DNA from: Candidatus Zhuqueibacterota bacterium
GTDB lineage: Bacteria; Zhuqueibacterota; Zhuqueibacteria; Residuimicrobiales; Residuimicrobiaceae
Direction: 5' to 3'
NCBI GenBank assembly: GCA_963169875.1
Contig: CAUJEL010000018.1
Span: 1-50,911, forward strand
Length of the DNA: 50,911 bases
Part shown: positions 306 through 22,160 of the stretch, piece after piece
How positions within the stretch are numbered: position 1 is the stretch's first letter
How the letters are laid out: each line of letters begins with the position of its first letter
The notes under the pieces: generated by a model
The model's database searches: none
What the model was told of the DNA's origin: nothing
The model's input: only the letters and a program-made list of their open reading frames with translations
Position numbers and translations under genes: made by a program

Positions 306-3300
306 TCAGCGCATCAGGATGGCTTTTTGCAGGGCCTCGGCGCGATGCTCGCCGCTTTGTGCCAGCACGCGATAGAGATAAACACCGTTGGCGATGACAT
401 CGCCCTCCTCATCCCTGCCATCCCAGGGCACCTGATTAAAGCCTGGCGTCCTTTCCCCGGCTTCGAGCACGCGAATCAGGCGGCCGTTGACGGTGTAGAT
501 GCGGATGGAGATGTGCGCGGATTGGGTGAGATCAAACGTGAACGTCGTATTATCAATGAACGGATTGGGATAGTTGAGAGCCTCCAGCACCTGTAAATCG
601 CTGATCACTCTGAATGCAATGGTATAAGTATTCGCATTGCCGCTGGCATCGGCATAATAAATTTCCAGCCAGTGTTCTCCATCATTCAACAGCGGCGAGA
701 AGCGCAGGCAGGTTTTGCCCCCTGCGGTGGTCAACGACACCTGGCCGCTGCCAGAACCGGGCACGAAAGCGAGGCGCTTACCATCGAGTAAAACGTTAAT
801 CAAAAGGGTGTCCTGCACAGCCAGGGGACTGTTGTCCAGGATCATCGCCTCGATGACAGGTTGATTCGAGACCAGCTCCCCGCTGGTGATGGCACGGCCG
901 TCGAATGTGACATCCAGGTGCGGACGGGTTGTATCAGCGACGACGTGGACTTGAGCGGTGAGGACATTATTGGCCTCGGAGAGCTCATTAATAAAATTGT
1001 CCGCGTCGATGCGCACGGTGAGCAGCCGCAGCCCGGGCCGGCCGGAGGGCGTGTAAAGCTGCGTGATGGCAGCGGACTGATCGGACTCGAGTGGTTTTGT
1101 CAATGTCAACCGGGAAAAAATGCGTTCCTCCGCCCCGGCGATGGTTTCAGCGAAGGATATCTGTACGCTGTCCGCGGCGGCCAGCCCGATATTGAAGAGA
1201 TCCAGTTTGAGCACGACGTCTTCGCCGCTGAGTACGGAATCGGCGCTCAGGGAAAGATAGGCGGGGCTCACGGCGAGATCCGCCACAGGATCATGATATA
1301 CCCTCCAACTGCTGAGATTTGGCGTATGCAGGCGATCCAGGGAACGAAAGTTGGCGCGCAGGCGCAGGAATGGATAGAGTTGGGCCGGGATGGAGCTGAT
1401 GTCATGATTCTGATTGAGGGCGAGACGGGTGCGCAGGGTGTCCCATTGGGTGGTGTTGCGCCGTTGTCCGAGCACGTCGAGATCGAGGGTGCACTCGGCG
1501 GGGATATCGCCATCGGCGCGCAGGGAATGCCAGCGCGCGGCTGCGCCGATGCGGGGGGAGAGGAGGGTGCCGGAATCATTTAAAACCTCGATGGTATCAA
1601 CAGCAACCGCTGATCCTGTTCGAGATCTTGATAGTTTTTCTCGTACCGTTCCTTTTGCCGCGCCTTTTATTCCTACGATCGACCAGGAATCACGAGGGCT
1701 GACTAGTCTGCATAAATTGCTCCCAATACTCTCAAGAGCTTGAAAGGCAGATTCTGTCATACTTACAGAACCCTCATCCATGATTGCAGCTAACACATAA
1801 TCACCAAGTTCCACTTTTTCAATGAATTTGGCCATTCTATTAGCTGCTGATGAATCACTATACGTATCGAAGAGATTAGTCGATTTGAGCAGTCCTGTCT
1901 GAGCATCAACAACAGCAATATTATGCCCTCGATGTGGTTCTACTGCTGGATCGTTTTTTATTATTATTCGCGCAAAATTACCATCATTATAGCCTGCGGA
2001 TTCTGCGTATAATCTGATTTTGTTATTAGATAATACCGCTTCATCACTTGATTGCACATTTATAAAGATACCATCATTAAAATTATCCGTTCCATACTGC
2101 ATCCAACCGTATTCGTCAGAAAATGCAGTCGTAAATTTTCTTTCACGCCATATGTTTTTATGTTGAGACGAATCCAATGTTCTAACGAAATAAGATTGTC
2201 CTTCAAGGAGATCAAAAGGATTACAAGCAATCACAGGCCCTTGATCGTCCACTAATCGAAAAAACTGTAAAGCGGGACTCGTGAATGTTTTTGATGTATC
2301 AATTTCAATTTTATATATTTTTGTTGAGCTTAGACTGCTTTGGGAGTCTATCAACTTTATAGTCACGTTTTCAGCTGGTACGACTGAATACGAGGTTGGC
2401 ACAACAATATCGATTCTTCCAGCCATAACAAACGTTGTTCTCTTGGAAGTATTATTATCTTCAGAAAATTCATAAATTTTGTTTTCCGGATCAGCCGCGG
2501 CAATTATTTCCACGTTTCCAGCCATATTCCTGAGTGGCCATTTCACAATCACTGAATCCAAGCGACAAACAGGGCCAACGCGTAACCTCGGTGCTAAAAT
2601 CTGTCCCCCAATATTGGGATGTTGAGTAGATATTTGAACAGTGACACTATCAGAGGTTTTTAAACCAAAATTTCGCACATAAGCACATATCTGCGCTGAA
2701 GAATCAGCTTCGCTTGGAATTTCAGGTTGAACAAAAATTTCCGTTGCCTGAATAGTCAAATCTGGACGATCTGGGACAGCAAGTTGGACAGCCGGATCGC
2801 CGAGCAGGTTATATTGATAAACCATATCCAGGATATGCTTGTTGGCTGCGGCATCCTGCCACAGCCGCACTTTGGCTTTGGAGACCAGTTCCCCTAAATG
2901 GCGCACCGTATCCTGCAAAGCCAATGGAAACAATTTGCGCAAGAAAGTATAATCTTCGTAAGAGTATCCCCAGCCCGAAGTGCCCATAAAACCAATAGCA
3001 CCTTTTTCCGGCACCATAACAAAGTACTCGCCAAAAGAGGTTTGATTGGGTTCGGCAAAGCGGCCGGTATGACACGTCATGGAGGTGATAAACGGCAAGC
3101 GCGGATGATTGTCCAAGGCATCGATATCGACGTTATGAAACATCAAATCCCAGGTGCGGCTGCCGGCGTGACCGATAAAATTCACCCACGCCACCCCCTG
3201 ATCGATGGTATCCAGTATCTCCTGACGATGTTCACCCTCTTGATAGCCCTCACTGGATTTGTGCAGCAAGAGCCCGCTGCCGCAGGTTGGGGCCGATTCA

Positions 3301-5957
3301 ACGAAATCCGCAATCAGCCGTTTTGATTGTTGTCCGAATTGCCCCTGTTCGATAAAATCAAATCCCCCGCTGATGAAGAGAAAATTCTTTCGCCAATCTC
3401 CACTCGGTCCTTGTTCGAAGGCGACAATTTTTGCCACGCTCGCGGCCGCCTCCTCGGGTGATTTGACCGGAATTCTTCCGGGCCATAGGTCCGGCAGCAC
3501 ATCTTCCGGGCCATCGACACAGACAAACCAATTGTCGCTGACCGGACTGCCGTAAGTCGGTACGAATTCGGTCGGCGCCGTCACCTTGTAATTATTTTTG
3601 GGATCCCAACTGGCATCTCCAAAGAACAGGACAAAAGCCGGCGCAGGCTGGGCCCAGTTCTGGTAGGCATGTTGGATGAATTTTTTGAGAGCGTCGGGGC
3701 TGGCCAGCCCATCCGCGAATTCGTCGTAAATCGATTCGACATCGACAACCATTGTGCGCCAGCCATTGGTCCTGGCGCGATAATCGGCCAAGTGCTTCGC
3801 CTCTGTCAGAAAACGCGTATGGGTGATGAGAATATAATCCGCGCCCTGACCGCCGCTGCGCAGATCCTTGTCCTGATATTTAACCACGCGCAAAGGCTGG
3901 CGTGCGGCGGTCCCATCAAAAACGACCAGACGGGGAATCGCAGCAGCAGGTAACGGGACACGAACCGCATTGCTGGGGCCACCATCCCGGAAAAATAATT
4001 TGCTCTTGACAACGGCGGAACCGCTCTTGCTTTTCTGCAATACTTCCAACACACTGCCGGGCGTCTTGCCCTTCTCCCCAATCATGGCCCAGGAATCACG
4101 AACACCGAGTTCGCGAATGCGGCTGCTGCCAAGGTTCTCTAGAGCTAGCCTTGCAGATTCCGTTAATTTGACACTGCCCTCATCGCGAATTGAAGCAACA
4201 ACAAGAGCACCAACAGGCAACCGCTGAATCCAGACCGCCATACTATCTGACTGTTCTGATGATGCATAGGTATCAAATTTTTTCTGCTCAACTACACGAC
4301 CATCAACAGGGTCCAAATACCAAAGGTTGATGCCACGTGTACCGGTGGAAACTACCTGCCCTTCACGGAGAAAATACGCATAATCGCCATCCGCGTAACC
4401 CGCAGAACGAACCTCAATGCGGCTCAACCACATTTTGCCCATCGCGGAGATTGGATGCATTATTCCAGCGGCTGTATCCCAGACATGGGCGTCTTCACTG
4501 GTAAAACCGGAGACATAAACATCATGGCTTTTTTCAGGTGCAGCTATATCCAACCACCCGTCCTGCAAACGCGTCTGGCGCCTGTAATCCACTTTGATCC
4601 AATCAACGTAAATCTGCGACCGTTCAGAAGGCGTATCGCCCAATAACCGCACCGTCAATGCGTTGTCCGGCTTGCGCACAAGTTCTCGGGGAACCAGAAA
4701 ACGGAGTAGTTTTTCATCGCGATCATCAAACCACAATTCGTGCACCATGGTATTGTTCAAGGAAATTTGCACGTGATGGTCCGGAGATTGCGCATCCAGC
4801 GTAGTGCCGCGGATGCGCATGCGCAGCACCAGTGAATCCTGCTCCAGCGCTGCATCCGGCACCGCGAAATTAAACACAGCACTGCCATTGCGGCTGATGA
4901 CGGCCCATACCCAGCCTTCCCCGGAGACTTTTTCGCTGTTATGGATATCGCTGTCCGAATCGCCCGAATAAAAGGATATATCCTTCTCATAATGGAGCGA
5001 ATCGGCAAAAAAATCCACCAAGGCTGTGTTTTCTGGCGCTGCCATTTTTTCATATCGTTTTCCGGGAGGTCCGCCCCAGGTGAGCCAATACACCATGGTG
5101 TCGCTGTAATCATGGTAGAATTCGCCATGATCGCCACGACGCGCTCTTCCATAGAGTAGAATTCGATCCGTCGGATCGAGCCGGCCGTCTTCACAGCCAA
5201 CCAGTTCGATCGGCTGTTCCACACCATTGACAAAGAGCTGCAGCGTGGCTGGATCCACATCGGAAAGTGAAACCTCTGCTGATTCAACATCTGCGCCGCT
5301 CAACTGATACGGCCCTTCTTCGAGCAAATAGAGCTTTAAATAGGATTGCAGCGCCTTGCGCCACTGTGGCGGATCCGCGCGCATGGTAAGTTTTGCCAGG
5401 GGTTCTTGATTGATGCGGACGTGAATGCGCGCATAGCGCAGGTATCGAACGCTGGTGGAGGACTCTTGCCATTGCACCGGAAAAAGAGTCAACTGCAAAA
5501 TTTGAGTTTGGCGTGACGTGCCAAATGAGGATTGTAAAATTCTTTTCGGGAAGAACGCGTGTAATTCATCACCTGGCCTGGAGGCGGCAGGATTTTCCTC
5601 GGGGGAAAAATAGAGCGGTGCGGCTAACTCCTGGCGGACAAAAACGGTATCCGTCAAGGATATGCTGGCCCGCTGACCAGCCGGCAAGGTCAGGCTGAGG
5701 CTGATCATCGGCAAAACAGGGTACCCCGACTGCATCCACAGAAGGGTTGCGTTTGAATCGGGCATGAGGAAGGTTTTGCCGTCGGCCATGATCGTACGCC
5801 AGGCCCACTCCGGCGCCGTCCATTCGTATACTTTATGAGATGGCGTATCCTCCAGCAGCTGCAGAGTGGGTTGCGCCTGGGCTGATACTGAAGGGCAGAT
5901 AAAAAAAACTGCCCAAAGGCAGATAAATAAAATGATGAAAGATGCGTGACGGTTCAT
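306..5957 (-). CDS. Secreted gingipain-family (C25) cysteine peptidase, multidomain
   Basis: This 1883-residue protein has a signal peptide (residues 1-28, ending VSAQAQ). The peptidase C25 domain spans about residues 705-1050. It contains the catalytic pair His930 (IGHAGS) and Cys962 (SMTCHTGR), with spacing like that of gingipains. Two domains resembling the interleukin-like EMT inducer/FAM3 fold flank it, at about 510-655 and 1313-1457; each carries SAGY.DG, DEGSV, LTESA or MTESA, and RDSW. CARDB-like beta domains lie near 1063-1180 and 1555-1665. The last ~100 residues are a FlgD-like/type IX-style sorting domain (NYPNPF … GVYLYRV). It is predicted to be exported and to act outside the cell or on its surface, perhaps maturing other surface proteins (inference). 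It sits last in the polysaccharide gene run with its own upstream gap of 110 bases, so co-transcription is uncertain. Confidence 0.88.
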   Translation of the reverse strand: MNRHASFIILFICLWAVFFICPSVSAQAQPTLQLLEDTPSHKVYEWTAPEWAWRTIMADGKTFLMPDSNATLLWMQSGYPVLPMISLSLTLPAGQRASISLTDTVFVRQELAAPLYFSPEENPAASRPGDELHAFFPKRILQSSFGTSRQTQILQLTLFPVQWQESSTSVRYLRYARIHVRINQEPLAKLTMRADPPQWRKALQSYLKLYLLEEGPYQLSGADVESAEVSLSDVDPATLQLFVNGVEQPIELVGCEDGRLDPTDRILLYGRARRGDHGEFYHDYSDTMVYWLTWGGPPGKRYEKMAAPENTALVDFFADSLHYEKDISFYSGDSDSDIHNSEKVSGEGWVWAVISRNGSAVFNFAVPDAALEQDSLVLRMRIRGTTLDAQSPDHHVQISLNNTMVHELWFDDRDEKLLRFLVPRELVRKPDNALTVRLLGDTPSERSQIYVDWIKVDYRRQTRLQDGWLDIAAPEKSHDVYVSGFTSEDAHVWDTAAGIMHPISAMGKMWLSRIEVRSAGYADGDYAYFLREGQVVSTGTRGINLWYLDPVDGRVVEQKKFDTYASSEQSDSMAVWIQRLPVGALVVASIRDEGSVKLTESARLALENLGSSRIRELGVRDSWAMIGEKGKTPGSVLEVLQKSKSGSAVVKSKLFFRDGGPSNAVRVPLPAAAIPRLVVFDGTAARQPLRVVKYQDKDLRSGGQGADYILITHTRFLTEAKHLADYRARTNGWRTMVVDVESIYDEFADGLASPDALKKFIQHAYQNWAQPAPAFVLFFGDASWDPKNNYKVTAPTEFVPTYGSPVSDNWFVCVDGPEDVLPDLWPGRIPVKSPEEAAASVAKIVAFEQGPSGDWRKNFLFISGGFDFIEQGQFGQQSKRLIADFVESAPTCGSGLLLHKSSEGYQEGEHRQEILDTIDQGVAWVNFIGHAGSRTWDLMFHNVDIDALDNHPRLPFITSMTCHTGRFAEPNQTSFGEYFVMVPEKGAIGFMGTSGWGYSYEDYTFLRKLFPLALQDTVRHLGELVSKAKVRLWQDAAANKHILDMVYQYNLLGDPAVQLAVPDRPDLTIQATEIFVQPEIPSEADSSAQICAYVRNFGLKTSDSVTVQISTQHPNIGGQILAPRLRVGPVCRLDSVIVKWPLRNMAGNVEIIAAADPENKIYEFSEDNNTSKRTTFVMAGRIDIVVPTSYSVVPAENVTIKLIDSQSSLSSTKIYKIEIDTSKTFTSPALQFFRLVDDQGPVIACNPFDLLEGQSYFVRTLDSSQHKNIWRERKFTTAFSDEYGWMQYGTDNFNDGIFINVQSSDEAVLSNNKIRLYAESAGYNDGNFARIIIKNDPAVEPHRGHNIAVVDAQTGLLKSTNLFDTYSDSSAANRMAKFIEKVELGDYVLAAIMDEGSVSMTESAFQALESIGSNLCRLVSPRDSWSIVGIKGAAKGTVREKLSRSRTGSAVAVDTIEVLNDSGTLLSPRIGAAARWHSLRADGDIPAECTLDLDVLGQRRNTTQWDTLRTRLALNQNHDISSIPAQLYPFLRLRANFRSLDRLHTPNLSSWRVYHDPVADLAVSPAYLSLSADSVLSGEDVVLKLDLFNIGLAAADSVQISFAETIAGAEERIFSRLTLTKPLESDQSAAITQLYTPSGRPGLRLLTVRIDADNFINELSEANNVLTAQVHVVADTTRPHLDVTFDGRAITSGELVSNQPVIEAMILDNSPLAVQDTLLINVLLDGKRLAFVPGSGSGQVSLTTAGGKTCLRFSPLLNDGEHWLEIYYADASGNANTYTIAFRVISDLQVLEALNYPNPFIDNTTFTFDLTQSAHISIRIYTVNGRLIRVLEAGERTPGFNQVPWDGRDEEGDVIANGVYLYRVLAQSGEHRAEALQKAILMR

Positions 5958-6067: not shown

Positions 6068-7048
6068 TCAGGGGAGCAATTGTCCCAGGAACTTGAAATC
6101 CGTGTGCATACCTTGGGCCAACAGGAACGCGAGGATGCCGAAAATCAGGCTCAGGCCTACCATGAATAACGCTGCACCGGGCTGACTTAATCCCAGTCTG
6201 ACCAGACGGTGATGGATATGTTCCCGGTCAGCATGGAACGGATGTATGCCCCGGCGTAAACGGCGGATGATGGCCAGGGTGGTATCAGTCAAGGGCAGTC
6301 CCAGCAACAGCAGTGGCACCATGATGGCCACGCGCCCCGGTGCCATGGTGGCTGTATGGAGGCTGAGCAGTGCCAGGATAAAACCGAGGGGCAGGCTGCC
6401 GGAATCCCCCATAAAGATGGAGGCCGGATTGATATTGTAACGCAGAAAACCGAGGACGGCACCCGCCAGCAGCATGGATATGACAATCACCAGTTGGTTT
6501 CCAAACATAGCCGAGATGCCGATGCAAACCAGGGCCACCACCAGGGCTATGCCGCTGGCCAATCCATCGAGGCCGTCGACCATATTGACGGCGTTGATGA
6601 CGCCGACGATCCACAGCATGGTGAAGGGATAAGAGAAATACCCCAGGGAAAGTTCGGCAAAACCCGGCAGGAGCAAGGTTTCGAAACGCCAGCCGCTGAC
6701 TGCGACCGCCAATGCGACGATCAGCTCAACAGTCAGTTTCAGATTACAATTCAGATCATACTTGTCATCAAAGGAACCGAGAATGAACAGGATGATTGTG
6801 CCAAAGAGCAAGCTGAGCAACATCAAGGATTTCTCAATGAGCTGCGGAGATTGCCAGTACAGGAAGAGCGCACTGATGACGAATGCGACGACTATGGATC
6901 CTCCCCCCCATTTTGGTACTGCGCCCTGATGCACCGTACGGTGGTTCGGGTAGGCGTAAATGCTGTACCGCATGGCGAGAAATCTCACCAGGGGTGTAAT
7001 TGCCAAAGCGATAGCCAGACTAAGGAAAAAATAGAGCCAGAGTTGCAT
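6068..7048 (-). CDS. wecA: Undecaprenyl-phosphate sugar-1-phosphate transferase (MraY/WecA family)
   Basis: This 326-residue integral membrane enzyme is predicted to transfer a HexNAc-1-phosphate (or a related sugar) from a UDP-sugar to undecaprenyl phosphate, the first membrane step of glycan assembly. Family signatures are visible: PNHRTVHQGAVPKWGG near the N-terminus, NMVDGLDGLASG (metal-binding aspartates), FMGDSGSLPLGF, and the HADREHIHHRL loop typical of WecA/TagO/RgpG rather than MraY. About ten hydrophobic helices span the chain. It follows the glycosyltransferases on the same strand after a 65-base gap, consistent with priming the polymer built by this locus. The exact sugar cannot be read from sequence. 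Confidence 0.9.
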   Translation of the reverse strand: MQLWLYFFLSLAIALAITPLVRFLAMRYSIYAYPNHRTVHQGAVPKWGGGSIVVAFVISALFLYWQSPQLIEKSLMLLSLLFGTIILFILGSFDDKYDLNCNLKLTVELIVALAVAVSGWRFETLLLPGFAELSLGYFSYPFTMLWIVGVINAVNMVDGLDGLASGIALVVALVCIGISAMFGNQLVIVISMLLAGAVLGFLRYNINPASIFMGDSGSLPLGFILALLSLHTATMAPGRVAIMVPLLLLGLPLTDTTLAIIRRLRRGIHPFHADREHIHHRLVRLGLSQPGAALFMVGLSLIFGILAFLLAQGMHTDFKFLGQLLP

Positions 7049-7113: not shown

Positions 7114-8391
7114 TTATCTTTTTGCATCCTGTCCATTTCCTACTTGCATAACAGGTCTTAAACTGCCATGCTGCTTTGCCGGCGGATGCGACATCCTTTG
7201 GGTGCGTGTTGTCCCAAGCACCGTTTTCTTTGCCAACTTGTGGTATAGTCCTTCAATTCTTTTGACCATAACGGCTTTGTCATAATCATCGCCGACGAAT
7301 CGATGACCGGCGGCGCCCATTCGTCGGGCTTGCTGTGGATGCGAAACCAGATAAAAAAGGGCTTCGGTCATAGCCGTTACATCGCCGCGCGGTACGACAA
7401 AACCATTTTCACCGCCATGCACCACCTCGCACGCGCCTTCGGTATCAAAACAGACGATTGGTTTTCGCAGGGCCGCGGCCTGTACCAATACTTGCGGTAA
7501 TCCTTCCCATAACGAGGAAAGGACAAATACATCCATGCTGGCCATCACATCTTCGATGTCGTTTCTGTGTCCCAGAAAATGGACCTGCGAACTGATGCGC
7601 AGCGAGTGCGCCAGGGTTTGCAATTCCTGAGCAGAAGGGCCATCGCCGGCGAGGATAAAGTGTAGAGAGGGATACTCTTGCAACAGACGTTGTGCCGCCT
7701 CCAGAAAGTAATACTGCCCTTTTCGCGGTTCCAATCGGGAGGCAGAACCGATTACAAAGGCCGAGTCGGACAAGCCCAATTCCCGTCTGGTCTTTCTGCG
7801 CCGCAGGGCGATCTCTGCATCACTCAGTTTGAAACGCGCCAATTCAAATCCACTGCGGATCGTGATATATTGTTCCTCTTTTCCAATGCCAGCTGACACA
7901 TAGATATCGCGCAGGTTATCGCCGACTGTTACCAGCTTATCCGTCACCCTTGCAGCCAGTCGTTCGAGGAGACGATAGAAAAGTGCAGTGATGGCCGACA
8001 TGGTGCGATGAAAGGTGGCGCCGTGCAACGTGTGTATGATGATTGGCGTTCGCCCGATCACAGCGGCCAGACGCCCAAGGATTCCGGCTTTGGCTGTATG
8101 GGTATGAACAATATGGTACCGTTGTGACCGCACCAAGCGAATGAGCTGCCAGAGCGCTTTTAAATCCTTGCCCGGAGCGGGTTCACGAATCAACTCCGGT
8201 ATCATGATGATGCGGCATCCTTCCACCCGGCCGATCATATCTTGATCGGACAGACCGCCCACCACCAGGTCAATACGGAAACGGGATTTATCGAGCCCGA
8301 TTACCGTCTGTATGGTATTTTCATCCGCGCCACCGGGTATGAGCCTGGTTATGATATGAAGCACGCGAATCTTTTTATTGGTTTTTATCAT
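7114..8391 (-). CDS. Glycosyltransferase family 4 (GT-B)
   Basis: A cytoplasmic GT-B enzyme that should add a sugar to the growing lipid-linked repeat unit. The N-terminal Rossmann half starts with IRVLHIITRLIPGGADENT. The C-terminal half has the GT4 pattern GSASRLEPRKGQYYFLEA, then VFVLSSLWEGLPQVLVQAAALRKPIV with the donor-binding acidic motif. The open frame extends upstream to 8505, but the extra residues look non-coding; I prefer the ATG at 8391 (after GGGG) just before the family N-terminus, and the ATG at 8409 is an alternative. The donor and acceptor are unknown. Confidence 0.88.
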   Translation of the reverse strand: MIKTNKKIRVLHIITRLIPGGADENTIQTVIGLDKSRFRIDLVVGGLSDQDMIGRVEGCRIIMIPELIREPAPGKDLKALWQLIRLVRSQRYHIVHTHTAKAGILGRLAAVIGRTPIIIHTLHGATFHRTMSAITALFYRLLERLAARVTDKLVTVGDNLRDIYVSAGIGKEEQYITIRSGFELARFKLSDAEIALRRRKTRRELGLSDSAFVIGSASRLEPRKGQYYFLEAAQRLLQEYPSLHFILAGDGPSAQELQTLAHSLRISSQVHFLGHRNDIEDVMASMDVFVLSSLWEGLPQVLVQAAALRKPIVCFDTEGACEVVHGGENGFVVPRGDVTAMTEALFYLVSHPQQARRMGAAGHRFVGDDYDKAVMVKRIEGLYHKLAKKTVLGTTRTQRMSHPPAKQHGSLRPVMQVGNGQDAKR

Positions 8392-8841
8392 TTTCCCCGT
8401 CATTTTCATTCCATGCCTGTCATGCATGATATAACCCGCTGGAAAACCGGCATTGTGCGAGTTTGCACCATGCTGGTTTGTTTCAGACCAGCAAAAGTGT
8501 TTCAACCTGAATCATTTACAACGCTTATGGTGCCAGAAGGGCTGCTCAGATGCACGGTGTTAATCATAATGCAATAACCTTGCCAAACCTGCTAAACTGC
8601 AGGATACAGCATGTATGACACCGGCCATTCCAGATGTTGGCCTCCCCCCAGGATCAACCGAGTTAATCGGCCGCTGCTTGCTCCAGCTCTTTTGTGTATA
8701 ACGTAATCACCGCCCCGGCATTGCTTCGTTCTTGGGACGATCCAGTCCCGACACAATCTCGAGCATCGATTTCTGCAAACCCTATATGAGCGGCAGCAGA
8801 TGCACATGACATATTTTAATTCGAGTTTGGCTCATTAATTT
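8392..8841. other. Gene-free stretch between two glycosyltransferases
   Basis: I see no convincing gene here. A 50-codon minus-strand frame at 8660-8812 has a protein-like tail (NAGAVITLYTKELEQAAAD) but no ribosome binding site and no recognisable family. It may be the decayed end of a former gene. No clear terminator or promoter was found. Confidence 0.4.
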
Positions 8842-9936
8842 TTAGGATGAAACCATATCCTCATAGATCTGCATCAAGGCCTGCACATAGTTGCCAATAC
8901 CATGAGTAGTGCTGACGTACTCGAATCCGCGCTGTCGTAGTATTTGGTACATCTCGGCATCTCGCGATAGCATCCAGATATGGGAGGCCAGTTGGGCATC
9001 ATCATCAGGGTCAAACAACAGGCCGCGGTCCTGATCGAGCAGCTCGACAATGCCGTCCACCCTAGACCCGATCACAGGCAATCCGTGACAAAATGCCTCC
9101 AGGATGACAATGCCCAGCCCCTCGTGCAAGGAGGGTAAAACGAAAAGATCATGGGAAGCATAAAACACCTCCGGCGTCAAGGAAGCGCCGACCAACTCGA
9201 CACGGTGCGTCAGATCGCGCTTGATGATTTCATCCGCGAGCGCATCGGCCATCTTGCCTTCGCCAACGATGGTAAGGGTGACGGGGATATCCCGCAACCG
9301 TGCCACCGCGCGCAGCAGGCAGGGAATATTCTTTTCCGGCGCGAGCCGTCCGACATAGAGGATGCGAAACGGCACATGCGCCTCCCGTGGCAGACAGGGG
9401 GGCAAGGCATCCGGTACTTCAACGGCGTTGTAGAGCAAGGTTATTTTATCCGCAGCAATCCCCTCATTCATAATCAACATGTCACGCACACTTGCGGATA
9501 TGGCGATGATGTGAGAATTTTCAGGCAGCGACAGCCAGCGGTCGAGCCGGCGCACCATGGCGCAGTAGATTGATTTGCGCCAACGAAACCATTCTGTGCC
9601 GTGCGCGGTAGAAAAGATTTTCAAATCTTTTTTCTGGAACGGCAAAAGGGCGGCGATCCTGCCGTAGATATCCGCATGAATCAGATGGGTGTGAACCACA
9701 TCGATATCCCGTTCACGGATCAATTTCGCCAACCTGAACATCGTAAATAAATTGCGTTTGATACAGCGCGTTTCAACGCCTATGCCATCGAAAAGTGGCT
9801 GCATGGGCGCATAAGGATCAAAATATACGACAACAACTGAGGCTTTGCCCAATTTCAGTAGATGCTTGCAGGTTACATATAAAAGCTTTTCTGCCCCGCC
9901 ATAACGTAATCCCGTGATCAAATATGCTATTTTCAT
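8842..9936 (-). CDS. Glycosyltransferase family 4 (GT-B)
   Basis: This 364-residue GT4 enzyme begins MKIAYLITGLRYGGAEKLL, the usual GG-A-E start of the fold. The C-terminal half has FRILYVGRLAPEKNIPCLLRA and LFVLPSLHEGLGIVILEAFCHGLPVIGS, the E-x7-E type donor site. I take the ATG at 9936 because it matches the family start and overlaps the stop of the upstream methyltransferase gene as ATGA, which implies translational coupling. It has an AGGAA box upstream. It probably adds one sugar of the repeat unit; specificity is unknown. Confidence 0.9.
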   Translation of the reverse strand: MKIAYLITGLRYGGAEKLLYVTCKHLLKLGKASVVVVYFDPYAPMQPLFDGIGVETRCIKRNLFTMFRLAKLIRERDIDVVHTHLIHADIYGRIAALLPFQKKDLKIFSTAHGTEWFRWRKSIYCAMVRRLDRWLSLPENSHIIAISASVRDMLIMNEGIAADKITLLYNAVEVPDALPPCLPREAHVPFRILYVGRLAPEKNIPCLLRAVARLRDIPVTLTIVGEGKMADALADEIIKRDLTHRVELVGASLTPEVFYASHDLFVLPSLHEGLGIVILEAFCHGLPVIGSRVDGIVELLDQDRGLLFDPDDDAQLASHIWMLSRDAEMYQILRQRGFEYVSTTHGIGNYVQALMQIYEDMVSS

Positions 9937-10592
9937 GTAATTATTTTCCTGCCATAGAAATATACGCCACTCGCAAGTTGATGGACACGGCGCGCACCAG
10001 GCACAATTGCATCTAAGTATTTTATCCAAAATGTCAGCCACCCGACCAAAAATTCTAAAATAAGTCCATATACCGACTCCCCCAGTAAAAATCTTGGCAG
10101 TTTCCTGGAATACCAAGCAAACACAGAAAAAGGTCCTACACAAACACCACTATCAATTTTTTTAAACTTAGAAAAAACATTTTCCAGGCCCATTAAAGTG
10201 AAGCGACGGAAATCGTTCGGATGGGCATGAAAACCTTGCAGGAAAGGTACTTCAATGTATATCATCCCATCAAAAGCACAGCATCGCTCTATTTCAGCAA
10301 CTGCACTCTGAAATTCAGCCACATGTTCAAGGACAGCAGTTGAGATGATAAGATCAATACTATTTGAACGGAAAGAAAGATTAGATGCATCACAAATCAT
10401 ATTGACATTCTGATTTTTAGTAATATCAATTGATATCACTCTATCATGAAGGAATCTGCCACCATTACCCAAATCAATAATTCTTCTATTATCATTAACT
10501 GCGGTGGTAACAATGTCAAATAAAAACTTTCTGCGATAACTATATGACGGACTGGGGGGTTTTAATATCCGAAACAAATTTTTAATCTTCAT
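9933..10592 (-). CDS. Class I SAM-dependent methyltransferase
   Basis: A 219-residue methyltransferase of the Methyltransf_11 type. SAM-binding elements are visible: IIDLGNGGRF (motif I), VISIDI (acidic end of beta 2), and LSFRSNSIDLIISTAVLEHV (motifs II/III). The FHAHPNDFRRFT stretch is shared with the methyltransferase at 16357, suggesting a common subfamily of polysaccharide-locus enzymes. It lies 10 bases after the GT2 gene and overlaps the next GT4 gene by four bases, so all three are likely cotranslated. The substrate, presumably a sugar of the polymer, is inferred. It is AT-rich compared with the flanks. Confidence 0.8.
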   Translation of the reverse strand: MKIKNLFRILKPPSPSYSYRRKFLFDIVTTAVNDNRRIIDLGNGGRFLHDRVISIDITKNQNVNMICDASNLSFRSNSIDLIISTAVLEHVAEFQSAVAEIERCCAFDGMIYIEVPFLQGFHAHPNDFRRFTLMGLENVFSKFKKIDSGVCVGPFSVFAWYSRKLPRFLLGESVYGLILEFLVGWLTFWIKYLDAIVPGARRVHQLASGVYFYGRKIIT

Positions 10593-10602
10593 AATTTTAT
10601 TT

Positions 10603-11547
10603 TCATTTTTTTCTTGTATTAGGCAAGGTATGCACGAGATATATAAAAGCGCTTTTGTATGCTAAAGCGTAACCAGCATATCCTTCTCTGAACAACTTCA
10701 GAAAATAAAAAATCAAAAACCGCAAAGAAGTAAAAATTAGAAAAAAAAACCAAAGAAAAGTGCTTTTATGGCCATTATAATATTTATTTATGAAGTATAA
10801 TCTTGACTGAAAGTTCGAAATTAGTGCCTGTTCGCGGTTTTGAATCTGGCTCTTTCCCCCGATATGCACTATTTGTAAATTAGATGCGTACTTTATGAAA
10901 TATCCTTCCTTTTTTATCCTCAAGCATAGATCGACATCCTCAGCATACATAAACATCTTTTCGTCAAAACCACCTATTCTTTTTATTATTGTGCTTTTAG
11001 AAAACAAGCAACCACCTGAAACCCAATCTACTTCTTTAATCCTATATGGAAGCTTTAAATAAAACATTAATTTATTATACCAGCCACTTTTCAAAAACTC
11101 AAAAATTATGGTAAATACAGTAGGAGTTTTTCCAAAACCATATTGAAGTATGCCATTGGGCGTAATTAATCCTGGCCCAACAACTCCAATGGATTGGTTT
11201 TCAGCGAAGATATCAATAACTTCTCCTATCAAATCGTTTATTAATATAGTATCCGGATTTAAAAATAAAACTAACTCTGAATCAACCAGCGCTAGCCCAA
11301 TATTGTTTGCTTTACTAAAACCAAGATTTGTTTTGTTGAGAATAGCATTAATGGTTACATTCGGTTGTATAAAATTCGAGATAATTACAGCAGTTTGATC
11401 AGTAGAAGCATTATCAATAATCACAATCTTACCAATATGTGCTTGCGAATATCTAATAATGGATTGAAGACAATTAGTAATGTCCTCTTCCGAATTATAT
11501 GTTACAATTAATATATCACACTTTTTTTGTGAGTGATTTTTCTTCAT
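10603..11547 (-). CDS. Glycosyltransferase family 2 (rhamnosyltransferase-like)
   Basis: This 314-residue GT-A enzyme begins CDILIVTYNSEEDI and IVIIDNASTDQTA (nucleotide-binding region). It continues with NLGFSKANNIGL, a LVLFLNPDT segment (the DxD position appears as NPD, as in rhamnosyltransferase-like GT2s), and VSGGCLFSKSTIIKRIGGFDEKMFMYAEDVDLC. A C-terminal hydrophobic stretch may attach it to the membrane. It overlaps the end of the polymerase gene by 32 bases. Its codons are strongly AT-rich, as in the two genes upstream. Confidence 0.9.
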   Translation of the reverse strand: MKKNHSQKKCDILIVTYNSEEDITNCLQSIIRYSQAHIGKIVIIDNASTDQTAVIISNFIQPNVTINAILNKTNLGFSKANNIGLALVDSELVLFLNPDTILINDLIGEVIDIFAENQSIGVVGPGLITPNGILQYGFGKTPTVFTIIFEFLKSGWYNKLMFYLKLPYRIKEVDWVSGGCLFSKSTIIKRIGGFDEKMFMYAEDVDLCLRIKKEGYFIKYASNLQIVHIGGKSQIQNREQALISNFQSRLYFINKYYNGHKSTFLWFFFLIFTSLRFLIFYFLKLFREGYAGYALAYKSAFIYLVHTLPNTRKK

Positions 11548-12655
11548 ATTGATAATGCCCCAATGTTGATATAATTAACCCGAATAATAGTGCAATAAAA
11601 AATCTGAATTGAGAAGCAATATACCCCAAGAAAAAATTGACAATCATTACAATAAAAAAGTTTTTTAATCCCCAGTAAAACTGAATATGTTTCTTATGAT
11701 AAATTGGAACATGTAACAATATTGCCCAGCTGCTTATAATCATCAAAATAAATGTAACAAGGCCAAACAATCCTTCTTCTGCTGCAATTTGCAAAAAAGT
11801 ATTATGGACAGAGGTGACTTCAAGCGGCCCAATGCTAATACCTTGAAAACCATGCTGTATCATAAAATCAAATAAATTTAGAGCACCAATTCCCAAAATT
11901 GGACTTGACAAAAAAGCGCTCCATGCTAGTTTCATTAATGATATTCGCTCAATATTAGATGCATCCTCTACTGATAAAGCCGCACTTAACTTTATAAATA
12001 TATATGATTTTAATGGCTCTAAATTAAACGATATTAATAATAAAGCAATTATTACACTCAGTACGATTATCTTAGTCGATTTGTCAAATAGTTTAATTGA
12101 GTTAACAATGATAATTAAGGATGCTAACCAGGCACCGCGTGATAATGAAAAAAACGCAGAAACAATGCAAAGAAAAGCTAGAATCATTATCCAATTAAAT
12201 TTTCTTTTTAAAAAGGGTAGCAGTAATGCTAATGCGAAAGCAGCCTCATATCCAGGAAATATTCTATAAGATTTGAATTCGAAACTGCCGAATAAATATT
12301 GTATGATGATCTCAACGATAAATAAAAAACAAGATAGAAAGAGTATCCAATAGAATACTTTAAATCGATTAAAACTCTTCAAATAAAAAAACAACCCTAT
12401 TATTATTATGTCTATCTCTATCCATTTTACTCCATCCTTGATTACTAAATAAGGATCATAGGCAAAAATCATAGATGTGAATATTGAAGTAGTAAATAAC
12501 AACATGGATAGAAAAAAAAGTGCGTTATACTTTGTATAACGAATCCGTAGAGGTAGATTATGGTTAAAAAAATCGTGAAACAGACCTAATAAGAGAAAAA
12601 CCAGCATTGGTATTTCAAATAGATGTATATATGTTCCATATATGAGGATAAGCAT
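11516..12655 (-). CDS. O-antigen polymerase/ligase family membrane protein (Wzy/WaaL-like)
   Basis: A polytopic membrane protein of about ten to twelve helices with the Wzy_C/O-antigen ligase signature: SLSRGAWLA, then a large periplasmic loop followed by SVHNTFLQIAAEEGLFGLVTFI (His-Asn-x-x-Leu … Glu-x-Gly). It is expected to polymerise flipped repeat units or ligate the polymer in the periplasm. I choose the ATG at 12655, one base after the TAG of the upstream gene; the longer frame to 12781 would overlap that gene by 125 bases. Very AT-rich. Polymerase versus ligase cannot be decided from sequence. Confidence 0.82.
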   Translation of the reverse strand: MLILIYGTYIHLFEIPMLVFLLLGLFHDFFNHNLPLRIRYTKYNALFFLSMLLFTTSIFTSMIFAYDPYLVIKDGVKWIEIDIIIIGLFFYLKSFNRFKVFYWILFLSCFLFIVEIIIQYLFGSFEFKSYRIFPGYEAAFALALLLPFLKRKFNWIMILAFLCIVSAFFSLSRGAWLASLIIIVNSIKLFDKSTKIIVLSVIIALLLISFNLEPLKSYIFIKLSAALSVEDASNIERISLMKLAWSAFLSSPILGIGALNLFDFMIQHGFQGISIGPLEVTSVHNTFLQIAAEEGLFGLVTFILMIISSWAILLHVPIYHKKHIQFYWGLKNFFIVMIVNFFLGYIASQFRFFIALLFGLIISTLGHYQYEEKSLTKKV

Positions 12656-12656
12656 T

Positions 12657-13721
12657 CTAAATGTTATTCCTTTTGATGGACTGGTAACGATCGAAAACAA
12701 AAGAGATAGCTGGCAAGTATATTGGTAATGAAAGCATAGCAATTCTACCAACATTATATTCAACATTAACCATAAGAGCAATTAGGGTTAAAGAAACAAC
12801 ACCAAAAATATCTGTAATAAAAAAATACTTTCTTAGTAATTCATTATTTCTTAACTCAGCTATGAAAATTGATACAATGATAGATAAGAGAAACAAGGGA
12901 ATAACGATCAAGATAAATCCTTTAAATGAACAACACAAAGAAAGATTAATTAAAATATTGGGAAAATACTTATCTATTTGCATCTGGTACTCATTACCTG
13001 GAAATTGAAAGAATAATCGAGCTGATAAGTATAAAATAACAGCAGCGATTGAAACTAACAATTGATAGATTGATATTGAAAATTCCTTTGTAATGAAACA
13101 GGAATAACAAAACCTAAGAAAAAGAATTGAAAAAAATAAAATTAAGATCTTTTCATTTACAAATGTGGAAAAAATCAAAAGTAATGAAAAACGAAAATTA
13201 TCTTTAATATAATATATTAACATTGAAATTATTAATAAAGTAAAGGGATCAATTCCTACTCGGTGTATAAAACCAGAAAACAAAAATCCAATAAAACATG
13301 TAATAAGAGAAGCATTAAAGGATGCCCCAAGTCTTTTATAGGAAATCATGAAAATAAAAAAAGAACAACCTAGTATCGACAGATACGAAACTGCCATCAA
13401 TGCTTGTACCGCTTTATAATATTCAGAATCAATTTCACAAAGATTGGTAAATTTATAATTCGGCAACATATAATAAAAAGGTACAGCAACTAATACTGCT
13501 AAAATTCTATAAATGTATGGAGAGGGGGGAACCTCACCTTTTGTAGTCTCAACTATTTTTAGTAAAAAAGGTGCGTAATCATCACGTGGCATTGTATTAA
13601 ACGCGGCTTCTCTTAGAATCTGAAAATACAATGGATAAGTAATAAAAAAGATAAGTATTACAACACATATTAACTTAATATTTTTTGATAAACGAGTGTA
13701 CAATGCTTTTATACCTTTCAT
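12657..13721 (-). CDS. Polytopic membrane protein of the polysaccharide locus, unknown function
   Basis: This 354-residue, AT-rich, highly hydrophobic protein has about nine to ten membrane segments, starting with KLICVVILIFFITYPLYF. I do not recognise a family with certainty. The motif MPRDDYAPFLLKI followed by SPYIYRILAVLVAVPFYYMLP is reminiscent of EpsG-like or mannosyltransferase-like membrane proteins, where charged residues sit in the first loop. It precedes the Wzy-like gene by one base, so the two are cotranslated. It could be a second candidate polymerase or a GT-C type enzyme. Confidence 0.6.
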   Translation of the reverse strand: MKGIKALYTRLSKNIKLICVVILIFFITYPLYFQILREAAFNTMPRDDYAPFLLKIVETTKGEVPPSPYIYRILAVLVAVPFYYMLPNYKFTNLCEIDSEYYKAVQALMAVSYLSILGCSFFIFMISYKRLGASFNASLITCFIGFLFSGFIHRVGIDPFTLLIISMLIYYIKDNFRFSLLLIFSTFVNEKILILFFSILFLRFCYSCFITKEFSISIYQLLVSIAAVILYLSARLFFQFPGNEYQMQIDKYFPNILINLSLCCSFKGFILIVIPLFLLSIIVSIFIAELRNNELLRKYFFITDIFGVVSLTLIALMVNVEYNVGRIAMLSLPIYLPAISFVFDRYQSIKRNNI

Positions 13722-13943
13722 TTTTTTACATTATCAACTAAGAATGAGTCCACTCCAAAAGCTACAAATTTCACTGATTACACTAATGACAACAATCCTA
13801 ATATTATATAAAACAATTCGCTTAAATCTCTGTAATTCGTGATTGAAGTTTTTAGAATTGACTTAAAAATATAAAGATCGCATTCTTGAAAAAATCTCTT
13901 TCATACAAATAGCAAATATTCTATTTTTTTCAATATGCAATGC

Positions 13944-14630
13944 CTATAGCATTTTTTTTGGTCGCAACACAAATATGAACTGATTGGCAAACAATCGCGG
14001 ATATACTTGACACATCCGGTCCGTAATACCTCTGAACATTCGCCATTTGCCTATCACAAAATCAAATCCCGGCGTCGCCGCAATTTCTGCTACCACAAAT
14101 CCCAACTGCTCAAAAAATTCTACCGCCGTTTTCGGCGTATAAAAATGAAGATGCGTGCTATCGAGAATACCACTCCGGGTATATCGCCATTGCCCGAACA
14201 ACAACCGCAACCGGATTCTGATGTTGGCCACATTGGGGATCGAAACGAGCATAAAGCTCTCCGGCTTTAATCGCTCCTTCGCAATATCCACTATCGCTTC
14301 CGGATGGACAAGGTGTTCCAGCACATCAGCCATCACGATAACATCAAACATCCGGTTCTCAAATGGCAAGCCTTCCCGCTCAATGTCCGTCCGCACCGCA
14401 GCCGTTAACCGCTCTTTCGCCTGCTCAATGGCGCGCGCGGATATATCCACGCCATAAACCCGGCAATTTTTATCGCGTATCAACTTTTCGCCAAACCGGC
14501 CCGTCGAACAGCCCACATCGAGCACCTGGCTGCCCGCTGGTATGAACGCGAGCAGTCTCTCGTTGATGAACCGGTCATACATCGCCGTCTTGTTTTCGTA
14601 TCTCTCCTCAGAAGATTCCCATTGTCTCAT
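13944..14630 (-). CDS. Class I SAM-dependent methyltransferase
   Basis: This 228-residue enzyme has a textbook motif I, VLDVGCSTGRFGEKL, followed by VYGVDISARAIEQAKERL and FDVIVMADVLEHLVHPEAIV. It belongs to the Methyltransf_11/23 group common in polysaccharide loci, where members modify a sugar or the chain end and may control length (inference). The ATG at 14630 overlaps the stop of the flippase gene as ATGA. Base composition returns to that of the GC-richer flank, so the AT-rich block ends just downstream of this gene. Confidence 0.85.
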   Translation of the reverse strand: MRQWESSEERYENKTAMYDRFINERLLAFIPAGSQVLDVGCSTGRFGEKLIRDKNCRVYGVDISARAIEQAKERLTAAVRTDIEREGLPFENRMFDVIVMADVLEHLVHPEAIVDIAKERLKPESFMLVSIPNVANIRIRLRLLFGQWRYTRSGILDSTHLHFYTPKTAVEFFEQLGFVVAEIAATPGFDFVIGKWRMFRGITDRMCQVYPRLFANQFIFVLRPKKML

Positions 14631-16099
14631 AGCGATATATCTTTCTTCTTACCTGCAGCGAAAAATGTATCAACCACCGTCGCAATGGTATCCCGATTCA
14701 TGAGAATGACAATGATCGAGAAAAGTGCGATGAATAAGATGCTGCCCATCCATGGATTACCAACCAGAAAATGCACGCAAAAATATCCGCTGAACGACAG
14801 CAACACTATTTTGGCAATTATGTAAAGAAGATTTTTGTCATGATACTCCTGATAATAGGCATAGGCTGATAACATCACCAGGCAGAGACTGCTGATGCTG
14901 ACGGCTATGGCCGCTCCGATTTGACTTAAGAAGGGAATCAGCGCCACATTCAAAATCATATTGATACAAGTAGATACGATAAGCAGAAAGAGATACTTTT
15001 TCTGGCGTCCACTGTAGAGCATTGGACTCATAAAAATGGAATAGATAAAAGTCCCATACAATGACAAGGAGAGAAACACCAGACTATCTGCCGCATGGAT
15101 AAAAGACGCCCCATACACCAGCGTAATGATTTCCTTGTTAAGGATGAGAAGAGGAATAACCGTAACCCCACCCAAAAAGGTCAGAATCAATCCATATTTG
15201 CTGATCACTTTCACCATGCGTTCCGGCTCGAGAAAAAATTTGGAAAAATAGGGCGCAAAGGCAACCTGGATGAGCACGGTGACGCCGTTGAATAACAGAC
15301 AAATTTTATAAGCCGCCTGGTACCAACCCACCGCCTCGGGGCGGTCCAGAACGCCGAGCATGAACGTATCGAACGTATAATACAGTTTGATGACCACCAC
15401 CGAGGCGGCCATGACCATGGATTCCTTGAGAAATTGACGCCAATGCCACGGCAGCCAGGCGATCTGCGGCCGCAAACCCCGGCGCAGCATCCAGAAAGCC
15501 AGGATCACCAGCGTCAATGCTTCAGCGGCGAAGCGCAACAAGGGCACGATGCGCAATTGATCCCGGTCGATGATAAGCGCCAAAACCAGCAGCAACTGGA
15601 ACCCATGCACCAGCACGCGCCAGGCCGAAATCCCGGACATTTTTTCTTTGCCCTGAAATGCGAACTCGGGATTCAATGCCTGAGTGAACAATCCCAGCGC
15701 GCTGCCCCAGCACAGCCAGCGCATCTCGCTTGAAAGCGGCCAAAAATAGACTGCCATCGCGAACGGTATGGCAACCACGACGGCCAGGATCAAGCGCAGG
15801 CTGAAGATGGCGCCGCTGAAAAAATTGACCCGCTCCGGGTTACGGGCAATTTCGCGCGCGCCAAACGTGGACAATCCCATATCCATGAACAGCGTGAAAT
15901 AGACCATCATGGCCTGGACAAAGGCGAGGCGTCCAAAGCCCTCATCGGTCAGCCGCCGCGCCAGCAGGATGGTGATGACGAACGCCAGGGCGCTGGAAGC
16001 GGCCTCGCCGCTGAGCAGCGCGAATAAATTGCCGGTCAATCTGCGTACACTGTTCACGAAGAGATAGTAATCCTTTTGTTGGCTATGAAACGCCTGCAA
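14627..16099 (-). CDS. wzx: Polysaccharide flippase (MATE/MOP superfamily, Wzx-like)
   Basis: A 490-residue protein with about 14 membrane helices. It begins LTGNLFALLSGEAASSALAFVITILLARRLTDEGFGRLAFVQ, the usual start of RfbX/Wzx proteins. It should flip the undecaprenyl-linked repeat unit from the inner to the outer leaflet of the cytoplasmic membrane. It overlaps the downstream methyltransferase gene by four bases. A perfect hairpin lies about 30 bases upstream of the start. The family call is firm; the substrate is unknown. Confidence 0.9.
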   Translation of the reverse strand: MQAFHSQQKDYYLFVNSVRRLTGNLFALLSGEAASSALAFVITILLARRLTDEGFGRLAFVQAMMVYFTLFMDMGLSTFGAREIARNPERVNFFSGAIFSLRLILAVVVAIPFAMAVYFWPLSSEMRWLCWGSALGLFTQALNPEFAFQGKEKMSGISAWRVLVHGFQLLLVLALIIDRDQLRIVPLLRFAAEALTLVILAFWMLRRGLRPQIAWLPWHWRQFLKESMVMAASVVVIKLYYTFDTFMLGVLDRPEAVGWYQAAYKICLLFNGVTVLIQVAFAPYFSKFFLEPERMVKVISKYGLILTFLGGVTVIPLLILNKEIITLVYGASFIHAADSLVFLSLSLYGTFIYSIFMSPMLYSGRQKKYLFLLIVSTCINMILNVALIPFLSQIGAAIAVSISSLCLVMLSAYAYYQEYHDKNLLYIIAKIVLLSFSGYFCVHFLVGNPWMGSILFIALFSIIVILMNRDTIATVVDTFFAAGKKKDISL

Positions 16100-16131
16100 A
16101 TAACCAAAAATTAACCTGGAGCTGTTTAATA

Positions 16132-16153
16132 CAGTAGTGTTCCCACACTACTG
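16132..16153. promoter_or_regulatory. Perfect 9-bp hairpin upstream of the flippase gene
   Basis: CAGTAGTGT (16132-16140) and ACACTACTG (16145-16153) form a perfect stem with a four-base TCCC loop. It sits 33 bases upstream of the flippase start. There is no U-run on either side, so it is not a standard terminator. It could be an operator or a 5' leader hairpin. Confidence 0.4.
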
Positions 16154-16356
16154 AGCCTGTGTGAAAATTTAAAAAAACGGTCATTCTGAGAAACAAAGCA
16201 ATGAGGGAACTCATGCGTAAGCAAACATAATCTTTTAATTAATCTTAATCTGAATACCCTCGGCCTGCAAAAAACGCAGGTCTTAGAATGGCGTATTTGG
16301 CATTTTACGATAGTTTTGAAGTATTCTCCTGAGATTGGGAATAAGGTAAAATGTTT

Positions 16357-16962
16357 CTATTTTTCAGTCCATGCCCTAACAGTCAATAGCACCCTGCGCC
16401 TGAATCGGGTTTTACTATTTGTTCTTACATAGCTCCCAAGGGCTTCTCTAAATTTATTTTCCTGCAGCACCGAATCATCACCCTTACAAAATACTCCCAC
16501 AACCTCACCAGGCGATTTGTCAGGTCCAATCCCAATGGCAATGCCATGAAACTTCCTGAACAAATATTTCAATCCTTCGGGTGTATAGCGAAAATAGTCT
16601 GATGGATACTCGTGTATAGCAAAATAAAAGGGAACGGTAATAATAACAATTCCATCGTCGCATAACGAATCATAAATATTATTTATAAAAAGAAAAGGCT
16701 CGTTAACATGCTCCAATGTATCACAGCATATAATTGTGTTGGCTGGTCGAGGAAGCCCCGCTTGTGTAAAATCCTTCACTTCGTCCACCCCGCGGCCCGG
16801 CCGCATATCTATACCAACATATTCTTTGCCGGGAAATAGATGACGCAAATCAGAATAACCTTCCTGGCCCTCTACCTGCAGCGATCCAATTTCATAGATC
16901 GGGCCAGAGATCGGAAGATTTTCTGAACATAGCTTTACAAAATTCAAGACAATCCTCTGCAT
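16357..16962 (-). CDS. SAM-dependent methyltransferase-like protein
   Basis: About 201 residues, Methyltransf_11-like. Motif I is divergent (PIYEIGSLQVEGQEGYSDL), followed by YVGIDMRPGRGVDEV and TIICCDTLEHVNEPFLFI. The sequence FAIHEYPSDYFRYTPEGLKYL parallels FHAHPNDFRRFT in the methyltransferase at 9933. I take the ATG at 16962 because GAGGG lies seven bases before it; the ATG at 16980 has no ribosome binding site. It stands alone between gaps of about 260 bases, so it may have its own promoter. The modified substrate is unknown. Confidence 0.72.
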   Translation of the reverse strand: MQRIVLNFVKLCSENLPISGPIYEIGSLQVEGQEGYSDLRHLFPGKEYVGIDMRPGRGVDEVKDFTQAGLPRPANTIICCDTLEHVNEPFLFINNIYDSLCDDGIVIITVPFYFAIHEYPSDYFRYTPEGLKYLFRKFHGIAIGIGPDKSPGEVVGVFCKGDDSVLQENKFREALGSYVRTNSKTRFRRRVLLTVRAWTEK

Positions 16963-17226
16963 GATGTTTCCCTCTTTCATTGTTGGGGGGCTTTATCCAT
17001 AAAATCAAGTTATGAATGACAGAAAACCTGCGTATGTACCTATTATCAGACAGTTAATCCAAAAAAATATCACCATTATCCTGTTCTATTCTTAACGCAG
17101 CCTTATGGCTACAAATAAATTTTCTATTATGATCAGAGCATTTGCGCGAAAATTTTGCTAAAAACCAAAGATTCCTGGGGTAATAGAATAACAGATCATC
17201 CCAGAGTTAGGGTGCCGTGAATGCCG

Positions 17227-20029: not shown

Positions 20030-20030
20030 G

Positions 20031-20780
20031 CTATTCCCACCCCTGCTCTTCCAACAACTGCTCTTTGGGAACCTCGCGGAACACCCGCGCCGGACTCCCC
20101 GCGACGATGGTCCGCGAGGGCACATCACGGGTTACCACGGCGCCCGCCGCCACCACAGCATCTTCGCCAATCACTTTCCCGGGCAGAATCACCGCCTGTC
20201 CGCCGATGCGTCCGCCCTTTTTAATCGTGACGCCCTTGAAATGCTTGAAGCGCTCTGCCGTGCGGCCGAGGTAATTGTCGTTGGTGGTCGTGACGCCGGG
20301 CGCAATGAAGCAAAAATCCTCCACCTCCGAATAGGCCGTGATATAACAGTTGGTCTCCAGCTTGCATTTTTTGCCGATTTTGCAGAAATTCTCCACCGTT
20401 GCATTGCGGCCGATAATGGTGTAGGCGCCAATGGTGACATTCTCGCGCACCGCTGCACCATCAGCGACCAGCACGTGCTCATTAATTTCGCAGCCTGCAT
20501 AGATGACCACCTGGGCGCCAAACATGCAGTGATCTGCAATGCGCGTTGGCGGCAACGCCTTCTCGTCCTGAAAAATGCTGCGCTTGGAACGCATCGGCTG
20601 CTTGCCCACCACGGTGCAGGCATCGATGCGCACCTCATCACCAATCACAGCACCCGCATGGATCACCACATTGTGTCCGATGCGGCAATTTTTGCCGATG
20701 ACCACGTTCGCCTCAATGACCGTGAAATGGCCGATTTCCGTTTCCGCACCGATTTGCGCGGCGGGATCAATGTACTGCAT
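20031..20780 (-). CDS. Left-handed beta-helix N-acyltransferase (LpxA/WbpD-like)
   Basis: About 249 residues made almost entirely of hexapeptide repeats (e.g. VVIGKNCRIGHNVVIHAGAVIGDEV), forming a left-handed beta-helix trimer that uses acetyl- or acyl-CoA/ACP. It ends VVAAGAVVTRDVPSRTIVAGSPARVFREV, typical of sugar N-acetyltransferases such as WbpD/WlbB. An insert TTNDNYLGRTAERFKHFKGV probably forms the active-site loop. The ATG at 20780 is chosen because AAGGAG lies six bases before it. It probably acetylates an amino sugar nucleotide, with WecB acting in the same branch (inference). Confidence 0.85.
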   Translation of the reverse strand: MQYIDPAAQIGAETEIGHFTVIEANVVIGKNCRIGHNVVIHAGAVIGDEVRIDACTVVGKQPMRSKRSIFQDEKALPPTRIADHCMFGAQVVIYAGCEINEHVLVADGAAVRENVTIGAYTIIGRNATVENFCKIGKKCKLETNCYITAYSEVEDFCFIAPGVTTTNDNYLGRTAERFKHFKGVTIKKGGRIGGQAVILPGKVIGEDAVVAAGAVVTRDVPSRTIVAGSPARVFREVPKEQLLEEQGWE

Positions 20781-22157: not shown

Positions 22158-22160
22158 GGC

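Follow-up and report, generated by a model that had tools for sequence, protein, structure and literature searches.

The window analysed here, the whole 50,911-nt stretch of contig CAUJEL010000018.1 from a Candidatus Zhuqueibacterota bacterium, carries a minus-strand gene (306–5957) that encodes a C25 cysteine peptidase of 1883 residues with two ILEI domains and a T9SS sorting tail, as defined by its open reading frame and profile matches. The features of this protein and of the gene cluster described below all lie on the minus strand. The protein starts with a probable Sec signal peptide (residues 1–27, MNRHASFIILFICLWAVFFICPSVSAQ; 5877–5957), read by eye, and a PorU-like N-terminal beta region (residues ~32–495; 4473–5864), which is delimited by conservation among homologues and is kept in all full-length homologues and in ILEI-less C25 paralogues. 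These are followed by the first ILEI domain (ILEI1, residues 515–653; 3999–4415), recognised by Pfam, by alignment with its duplicate and by a structural model and lying in a segment of the small domain that immediately precedes C25, and by the Peptidase_C25 domain itself (residues 708–1059; 2781–3836; Pfam). Behind the catalytic domain come a first CARDB domain (residues 1065–1171; 2445–2765; Pfam), a conserved domain called MID (residues ~1185–1314; 2016–2405), the second ILEI domain (ILEI2, residues 1317–1455; 1593–2009; Pfam and duplicate alignment), a conserved domain called LINK (residues ~1467–1590; 1188–1559) and a second CARDB domain (residues ~1594–1680; 918–1178; Pfam and family comparison). 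MID and LINK were delimited by family conservation, and the Pfam search of the protein gave no match for either; a FlgD-like domain was also among its Pfam matches. The tail is a T9SS type A sorting domain (NCBIfam TIGR04183, residues 1796–1869; 351–572), whose score of 26.9 bits against a cut-off of 23, in a genome that encodes a T9SS, places the protein among T9SS type A cargo.

A sequence-only reading had described an ILEI-like pair on both sides of the C25 domain, and the domain order (515–653, 708–1059, 1317–1455) bears this out. The flanking is asymmetric: ILEI1 lies ~50 residues ahead of C25 and ILEI2 ~250 residues behind it, with the first CARDB domain and MID in between. The second CARDB domain and the sorting domain had no place in that description and were found here by profile search.

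The gene is the last of a same-strand, Wzx/Wzy-type polysaccharide cluster that reaches to 24104. Immediately upstream lie a WecA-like polyprenyl-phosphate sugar-phosphate transferase (Glycos_transf_4; 6068–7048) and two GT4-type glycosyltransferases (7114–8505 and 8842–10143; together 7114–10143), all three being conserved neighbours. The rest of the cluster (9933–24104), assigned by domain matches, encodes a GT2 (10603–11547), Wzy_C (11516–12781), Wzx (14627–16099), a Wzi-like protein (17227–19104), a UDP-GlcNAc 2-epimerase (18944–20128), a hexapeptide transferase (20031–20834), Wzz (20919–22157) and a Wza-like protein (22161–24104). The WecA-like and UDP-GlcNAc 2-epimerase genes are compatible with a HexNAc-containing glycan. 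Positions 10001–14000, which cover Wzy, the GT2 and neighbouring genes, have a G+C content of 28–33% against ~52% around them, and were likely acquired recently as a serotype-like island. Positions 24365–28240, where the cluster has its other end, encode a 1291-residue fn3/Big_5 protein with a T9SS tail. This is a possible cognate cargo; a T9SS tail near the cluster is also expected by chance, because ~150 tails in 5 Mb amount to one per ~30 kb. Elsewhere in the window are a Fic/DOC-family protein with Fic_N and HTH domains (43167–44306) and a minus-strand tRNA gene (44734–44806).

The ILEI domains and their putative glycan contacts

The two ILEI segments were proposed in the sequence-only reading to be duplicates spanning residues ~510–655 and ~1313–1457, which was right to within a few residues: in an ungapped alignment, segments 515–653 and 1317–1455 share 41% identity and 63% positives (E 7e-34), a value that rules out chance likeness. 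Pfam matches PF15711 (ILEI) to both stretches (E 3.7e-49, 165.6 bits for the protein); scored apart, the copies reach 93.7 and 82.6 bits, far above the gathering cut-off of 27 bits. A profile search of the 5.0-Mb genome found no ILEI domain beyond these two. Against PDB sequences, both copies matched the POMGnT1 stem domain, FAM3A, FAM3B and FAM3C, with E-values of 3.6e-14 (5ggj) for ILEI1 and 4.7e-11 for ILEI2.

Structure prediction agrees with the profile matches, and both checks suggested in the sequence-only reading were positive. The ILEI1 model, built from 12 aligned copies (pLDDT 89.5), has as its best solved match in Foldseek the POMGnT1 stem domain 5ggj (TM 0.77/0.83, rmsd 1.7 Å, E 7.8e-12), followed by FAM3B, FAM3C, FAM3A and TMEM2; all top matches were POMGnT1, FAM3 or TMEM2. 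ILEI2 was modelled as part of the core (residues 470–1600), where it shows the same order of elements at a local pLDDT of ~67–92. The core model as a whole is poor (pLDDT 58.8), too poor to show how the ILEI domains lie with respect to the active site.

The bacterial copies thus share fold, sequence and, as set out below, R/D/R contact residues with the POMGnT1 stem/FAM3/PANDER/ILEI fold, and differ in being bacterial, in occurring as two copies in one T9SS-tailed protease and in mostly having no cysteine or one. The earlier view of ILEI as a domain best known from animals holds as far as the likeness to FAM3 and POMGnT1 goes, but animals are not its main home. A sequence search of phages with ILEI1 gave no match, whereas the fold search found the ILEI fold in many phage tail-fibre and receptor-binding proteins. 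These phage ILEI-fold (CBM_1) domains belong to structural adhesion devices and come with no C25 protease; in CBM_1 of TP-778L, the glycan-contact Arg/Asp are reported to be conserved (PMC9437275).

In POMGnT1, R129, D179 and R207 contact beta-linked GlcNAc (PMC9802357). By alignment, their equivalents are R541 (4335–4337), D592 (4182–4184) and R620 (4098–4100) in ILEI1, and R1343 (1929–1931), D1394 (1776–1778) and R1422 (1692–1694) in ILEI2. Across the family, the ILEI1 triad is kept at 32/33 (R), 33/33 (D) and 33/33 (R), and that of ILEI2 at 38/42, 36/42 and 37/42; the triad columns rank 11th, 12th and 14th of 140 by conservation. Both triads are intact in 24 of the 31 proteins with two readable ILEI copies, and at least one is intact in all 31. 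Some ILEI2 copies lack the triad (L045, L050, L078 and L079); such copies are mostly paired with an intact ILEI1, L078 and L079 being one-ILEI members. The earlier suggestion of glycan or surface binding gains support on the glycan side, because the POMGnT1 GlcNAc-contact residues are kept in both ILEI copies, and we infer from this residue conservation that the domains may bind glycan.

Other ILEI proteins were seen in the survey described below. In a genome of another phylum (G095), the neighbour of a glycosyltransferase gene encodes an 840-residue PMT_2-type mannosyltransferase (L080, 257–2776) with two ILEI domains in tandem, a bacterial glycosyltransferase–ILEI fusion reminiscent of POMGnT1. 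A second type, present in some relatives, is ~970 residues long and combines a single ILEI domain with a tail region of T9SS type (L082, 3763–6645; L083, 5619–8582; L084, 3299–6223), with CotH kinase and lamin-tail domains in addition in L082.

The C25 domain, PorU likeness and T9SS context

The Peptidase_C25 match is strong (E 5.9e-81, 273 bits against a cut-off of 23). By alignment, the catalytic residues are H930 (GHAGS; 3168–3170), matching the histidine of PorU GHGG, and C962 (MTCHTG; 3072–3074), matching the cysteine of PorU TATC. The histidine is present in 43/43 family members and the cysteine in 42/42 readable ones. Among solved C25 structures, PorU is the nearest in sequence (76.4 bits), against 43.3 bits for gingipain K. 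Gingipains RgpB and Kgp share the catalytic family and dyad, but are a weaker match than PorU, and the ILEI protein has extra domains and a polysaccharide-operon context.

Plain membership of PorU or PorU2 is rejected, as both curated cut-offs are missed: the PorU model (NF033707) scores 363.6 bits (E 1.9e-108; cut-off 420), and the PorU2 model (NF052324), the best NCBIfam match, 381.1 bits (E 1.1e-113; cut-off 450), with 361.9 for the one-ILEI member L072. With PorU (PDB 6za2) the protein shares the N-terminal region, the C25 His/Cys dyad, its own sorting tail and a surface T9SS context, to which it adds two ILEI domains, two CARDB domains, MID and LINK, and a location in a polysaccharide operon. 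With PorU2, a putative T9SS sortase, it shares the C25 and first CARDB domains (residues 685–1169 align to model positions 376–879 of 879), whereas the PorU2 model ends ahead of the ILEI2 region. Our literature search found no paper naming PorU2, which does not imply that there is none.

The genome itself encodes SprA, 36 PorV-family matches, ~150 sorting-tail matches, PorZ (306.6 bits; cut-off 260) and a separate canonical PorU (G000:C172; 886.7 bits; cut-off 420). Since canonical PorU and PorZ are already there, the ILEI protein is an additional PorU-like enzyme, not needed for basic T9SS sorting. The presence of PorZ also rules out that PorZ is missing and replaced by ILEI. A core T9SS component is an unlikely role, as the relatives G041 and G061 have SprA and PorV and no match to MID-ILEI2-LINK.

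Among 39 readable loci of the family, 34 have glycosyltransferase genes among the three nearest co-directional upstream genes and 23 have a WecA-like gene there, and intergenic gaps in the relatives' loci are often below 100 bases. Glycosyltransferase linkage also extends to forms with one ILEI. The genome's three C25 genes without ILEI served as a partial control: one of them is near sugar genes too, so such a neighbourhood is not confined to the ILEI form. That paralogue (L088, 6034–10968 of G000:C10) reaches 416.8 bits with the PorU model (cut-off 420), overlaps a 359-residue open reading frame that resembles PorV by eye, and has genes for a GT4, a PMT_2 protein and a UDP-glucose dehydrogenase close by; it is perhaps another glycan-linked sortase locus.

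Distribution and evolution of the family

The layout had been taken for an unusual architecture, and it is no lone oddity. It is a conserved family across much of the phylum, tied to polysaccharide operons and T9SS. We surveyed 99 genomes, the organism's own and those of relatives, many of them fragmented assemblies, and those named metagenome-assembled. ILEI was found in 55: the genome itself, 49 of 62 relatives of the same class or closer, 4 of 19 other genomes of the phylum and 1 of 17 from other phyla. As a rule, it is confined to one gene of the C25 kind per genome. Named public homologues carry labels that include candidate division KSB1 and Calditrichaeota, and one is from Actinomycetota. 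The order N-terminal region, ILEI1, C25, CARDB, MID, ILEI2, LINK, CARDB and tail recurs at ~30 loci, some cut by contig ends. A one-off architecture or an assembly error is ruled out, with ILEI1 and ILEI2 at kept spacing in intact frames in dozens of genomes. The initial observation is confirmed, and the evidence supports its reading and takes it further.

A second form, with ILEI2 only, is seen in ten further C25 proteins, and the segment that bears ILEI1 in the others is unbroken in them. In the C25 tree, which is rooted on very long outgroup branches, the one-ILEI proteins form a single clade (97/92) nested with two-ILEI proteins, while in the midpoint-rooted ILEI tree their copies fall outside a group (99/97) that unites every copy from two-ILEI proteins. 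The AU test does not reject a single origin of ILEI1 (p-AU 0.305; 0.531 when the other ILEI proteins are included). The one-ILEI state may be ancestral or reflect loss of ILEI1.

A search for the MID-ILEI2-LINK region in 18 genomes, nearly all without ILEI, gave no match in 13, so gain or loss often concerns the gene as a unit. Searches of 39, 132 and 17 genomes from three further phyla that have PorU found no ILEI above the cut-off, two of the searches being flagged as matchless throughout. One Bacteroidota relative, on a Runella plasmid, has C25 and CARDB domains, a sub-threshold sorting-tail match and no ILEI. A literature search on bacterial ILEI/GG domains found no paper, and the existence of such papers is not thereby denied.

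Possible roles at the cell surface

T9SS cargo anchoring is known mainly from Porphyromonas gingivalis. There, PorU removes the tail of the cargo, which it then links to an amino sugar of A-LPS (PMC10202324). The A-LPS is presented by PorZ, a carbohydrate-binding two-propeller protein (PMC8545088), on which PorU depends for this presentation. Building on the domains, the predicted ILEI1 fold, the glycan-contact and catalytic residues, the synteny, and the T9SS tail and genes, we tentatively favour, at somewhat below even confidence, a PorU-like C25 enzyme exported by T9SS. The enzyme would leave by T9SS to the outer surface with its own sorting tail, and its ILEI domains would hold a glycan that we take to be the polysaccharide made by the same operon. 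It probably acts on the C-terminal sorting domain of T9SS cargo. If it works as PorU does, the cut would leave an enzyme–cargo thioester, and the cargo would then be passed to an amine on the ILEI-held glycan, that is, by transpeptidation rather than plain proteolysis. The proposed role of ILEI resembles that of PorZ, in that a C25 sortase has its acceptor glycan held in place, but PorZ is a separate protein and the ILEI module would be part of the enzyme. Since glycan-contact domains and C25 are encoded together in the glycan's operon, glycan capture is suggested to be built into the enzyme. A more pointed version, in which the enzyme is a second T9SS sortase that works in parallel to PorU/PorZ in the same cell, captures the product of its own Wzx/Wzy operon with its FAM3/POMGnT1-type domains and couples cargo to that capsule glycan, seems to us somewhat unlikely. 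Counting against the favoured reading are the missed PorU and PorU2 cut-offs with canonical PorU and PorZ already in the genome, relatives such as G041 and G061 that have T9SS genes without the ILEI–C25 gene, the triad loss in L078 and L079, and the ILEI-less L088 near sugar genes.

The held polysaccharide could also simply keep the enzyme in the capsule. In the main rival reading, the protein is T9SS cargo and acts as a surface protease of gingipain type, digesting external proteins without transpeptidation and using ILEI only for retention in the cell's own capsule or exopolysaccharide. It draws on the same fold and synteny evidence, on C25 matches to gingipain structures too, and on the same cut-off and canonical PorU findings; but PorU is the closer match by sequence (76.4 against 43.3 bits), and a layout of ~1900 residues, conserved as a rule once per genome beside glycan genes, is more than one would expect a free protease to require. 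On balance we consider it somewhat unlikely. The ILEI domains may instead bind no glycan and serve as structural or protein-docking modules that place C25 in a complex at the surface, together with partners of the PorV/PorQ/PorZ type. FAM3 proteins are best known for signalling, and the triad-less ILEI2 copies indicate that the domain can persist without the triad. This is improbable, however, given how highly the triad columns rank in conservation, the intact ILEI1 that mostly accompanies triad-less ILEI2, the fusion of ILEI to a PMT_2 mannosyltransferase beside a glycosyltransferase gene in another phylum, and the occurrence of ILEI in phage receptor-binding and tail-fibre proteins. A further reading is a targeted adhesin-protease, in which ILEI would recognise foreign glycans of other cells or of plant or algal matter: the contact residues are retained in an ILEI-fold module from a phage adhesion device and the POMGnT1 stem can bind a number of saccharides (PMC9437275), and the predicted location of the protein is extracellular. 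We regard this as highly improbable, as the genes linked to it across genomes form an operon for polysaccharide synthesis and not a degradation locus.

To our knowledge, the role of the domain in human FAM3 proteins is still unclear; the present family places the FAM3/POMGnT1 domain in a bacterial setting in which the linked genes suggest a glycan as its ligand. If the ILEI domains of the PorU-like enzyme hold the acceptor glycan, the phylum would show another solution to anchoring, with capture placed within the enzyme and within the glycan's operon.
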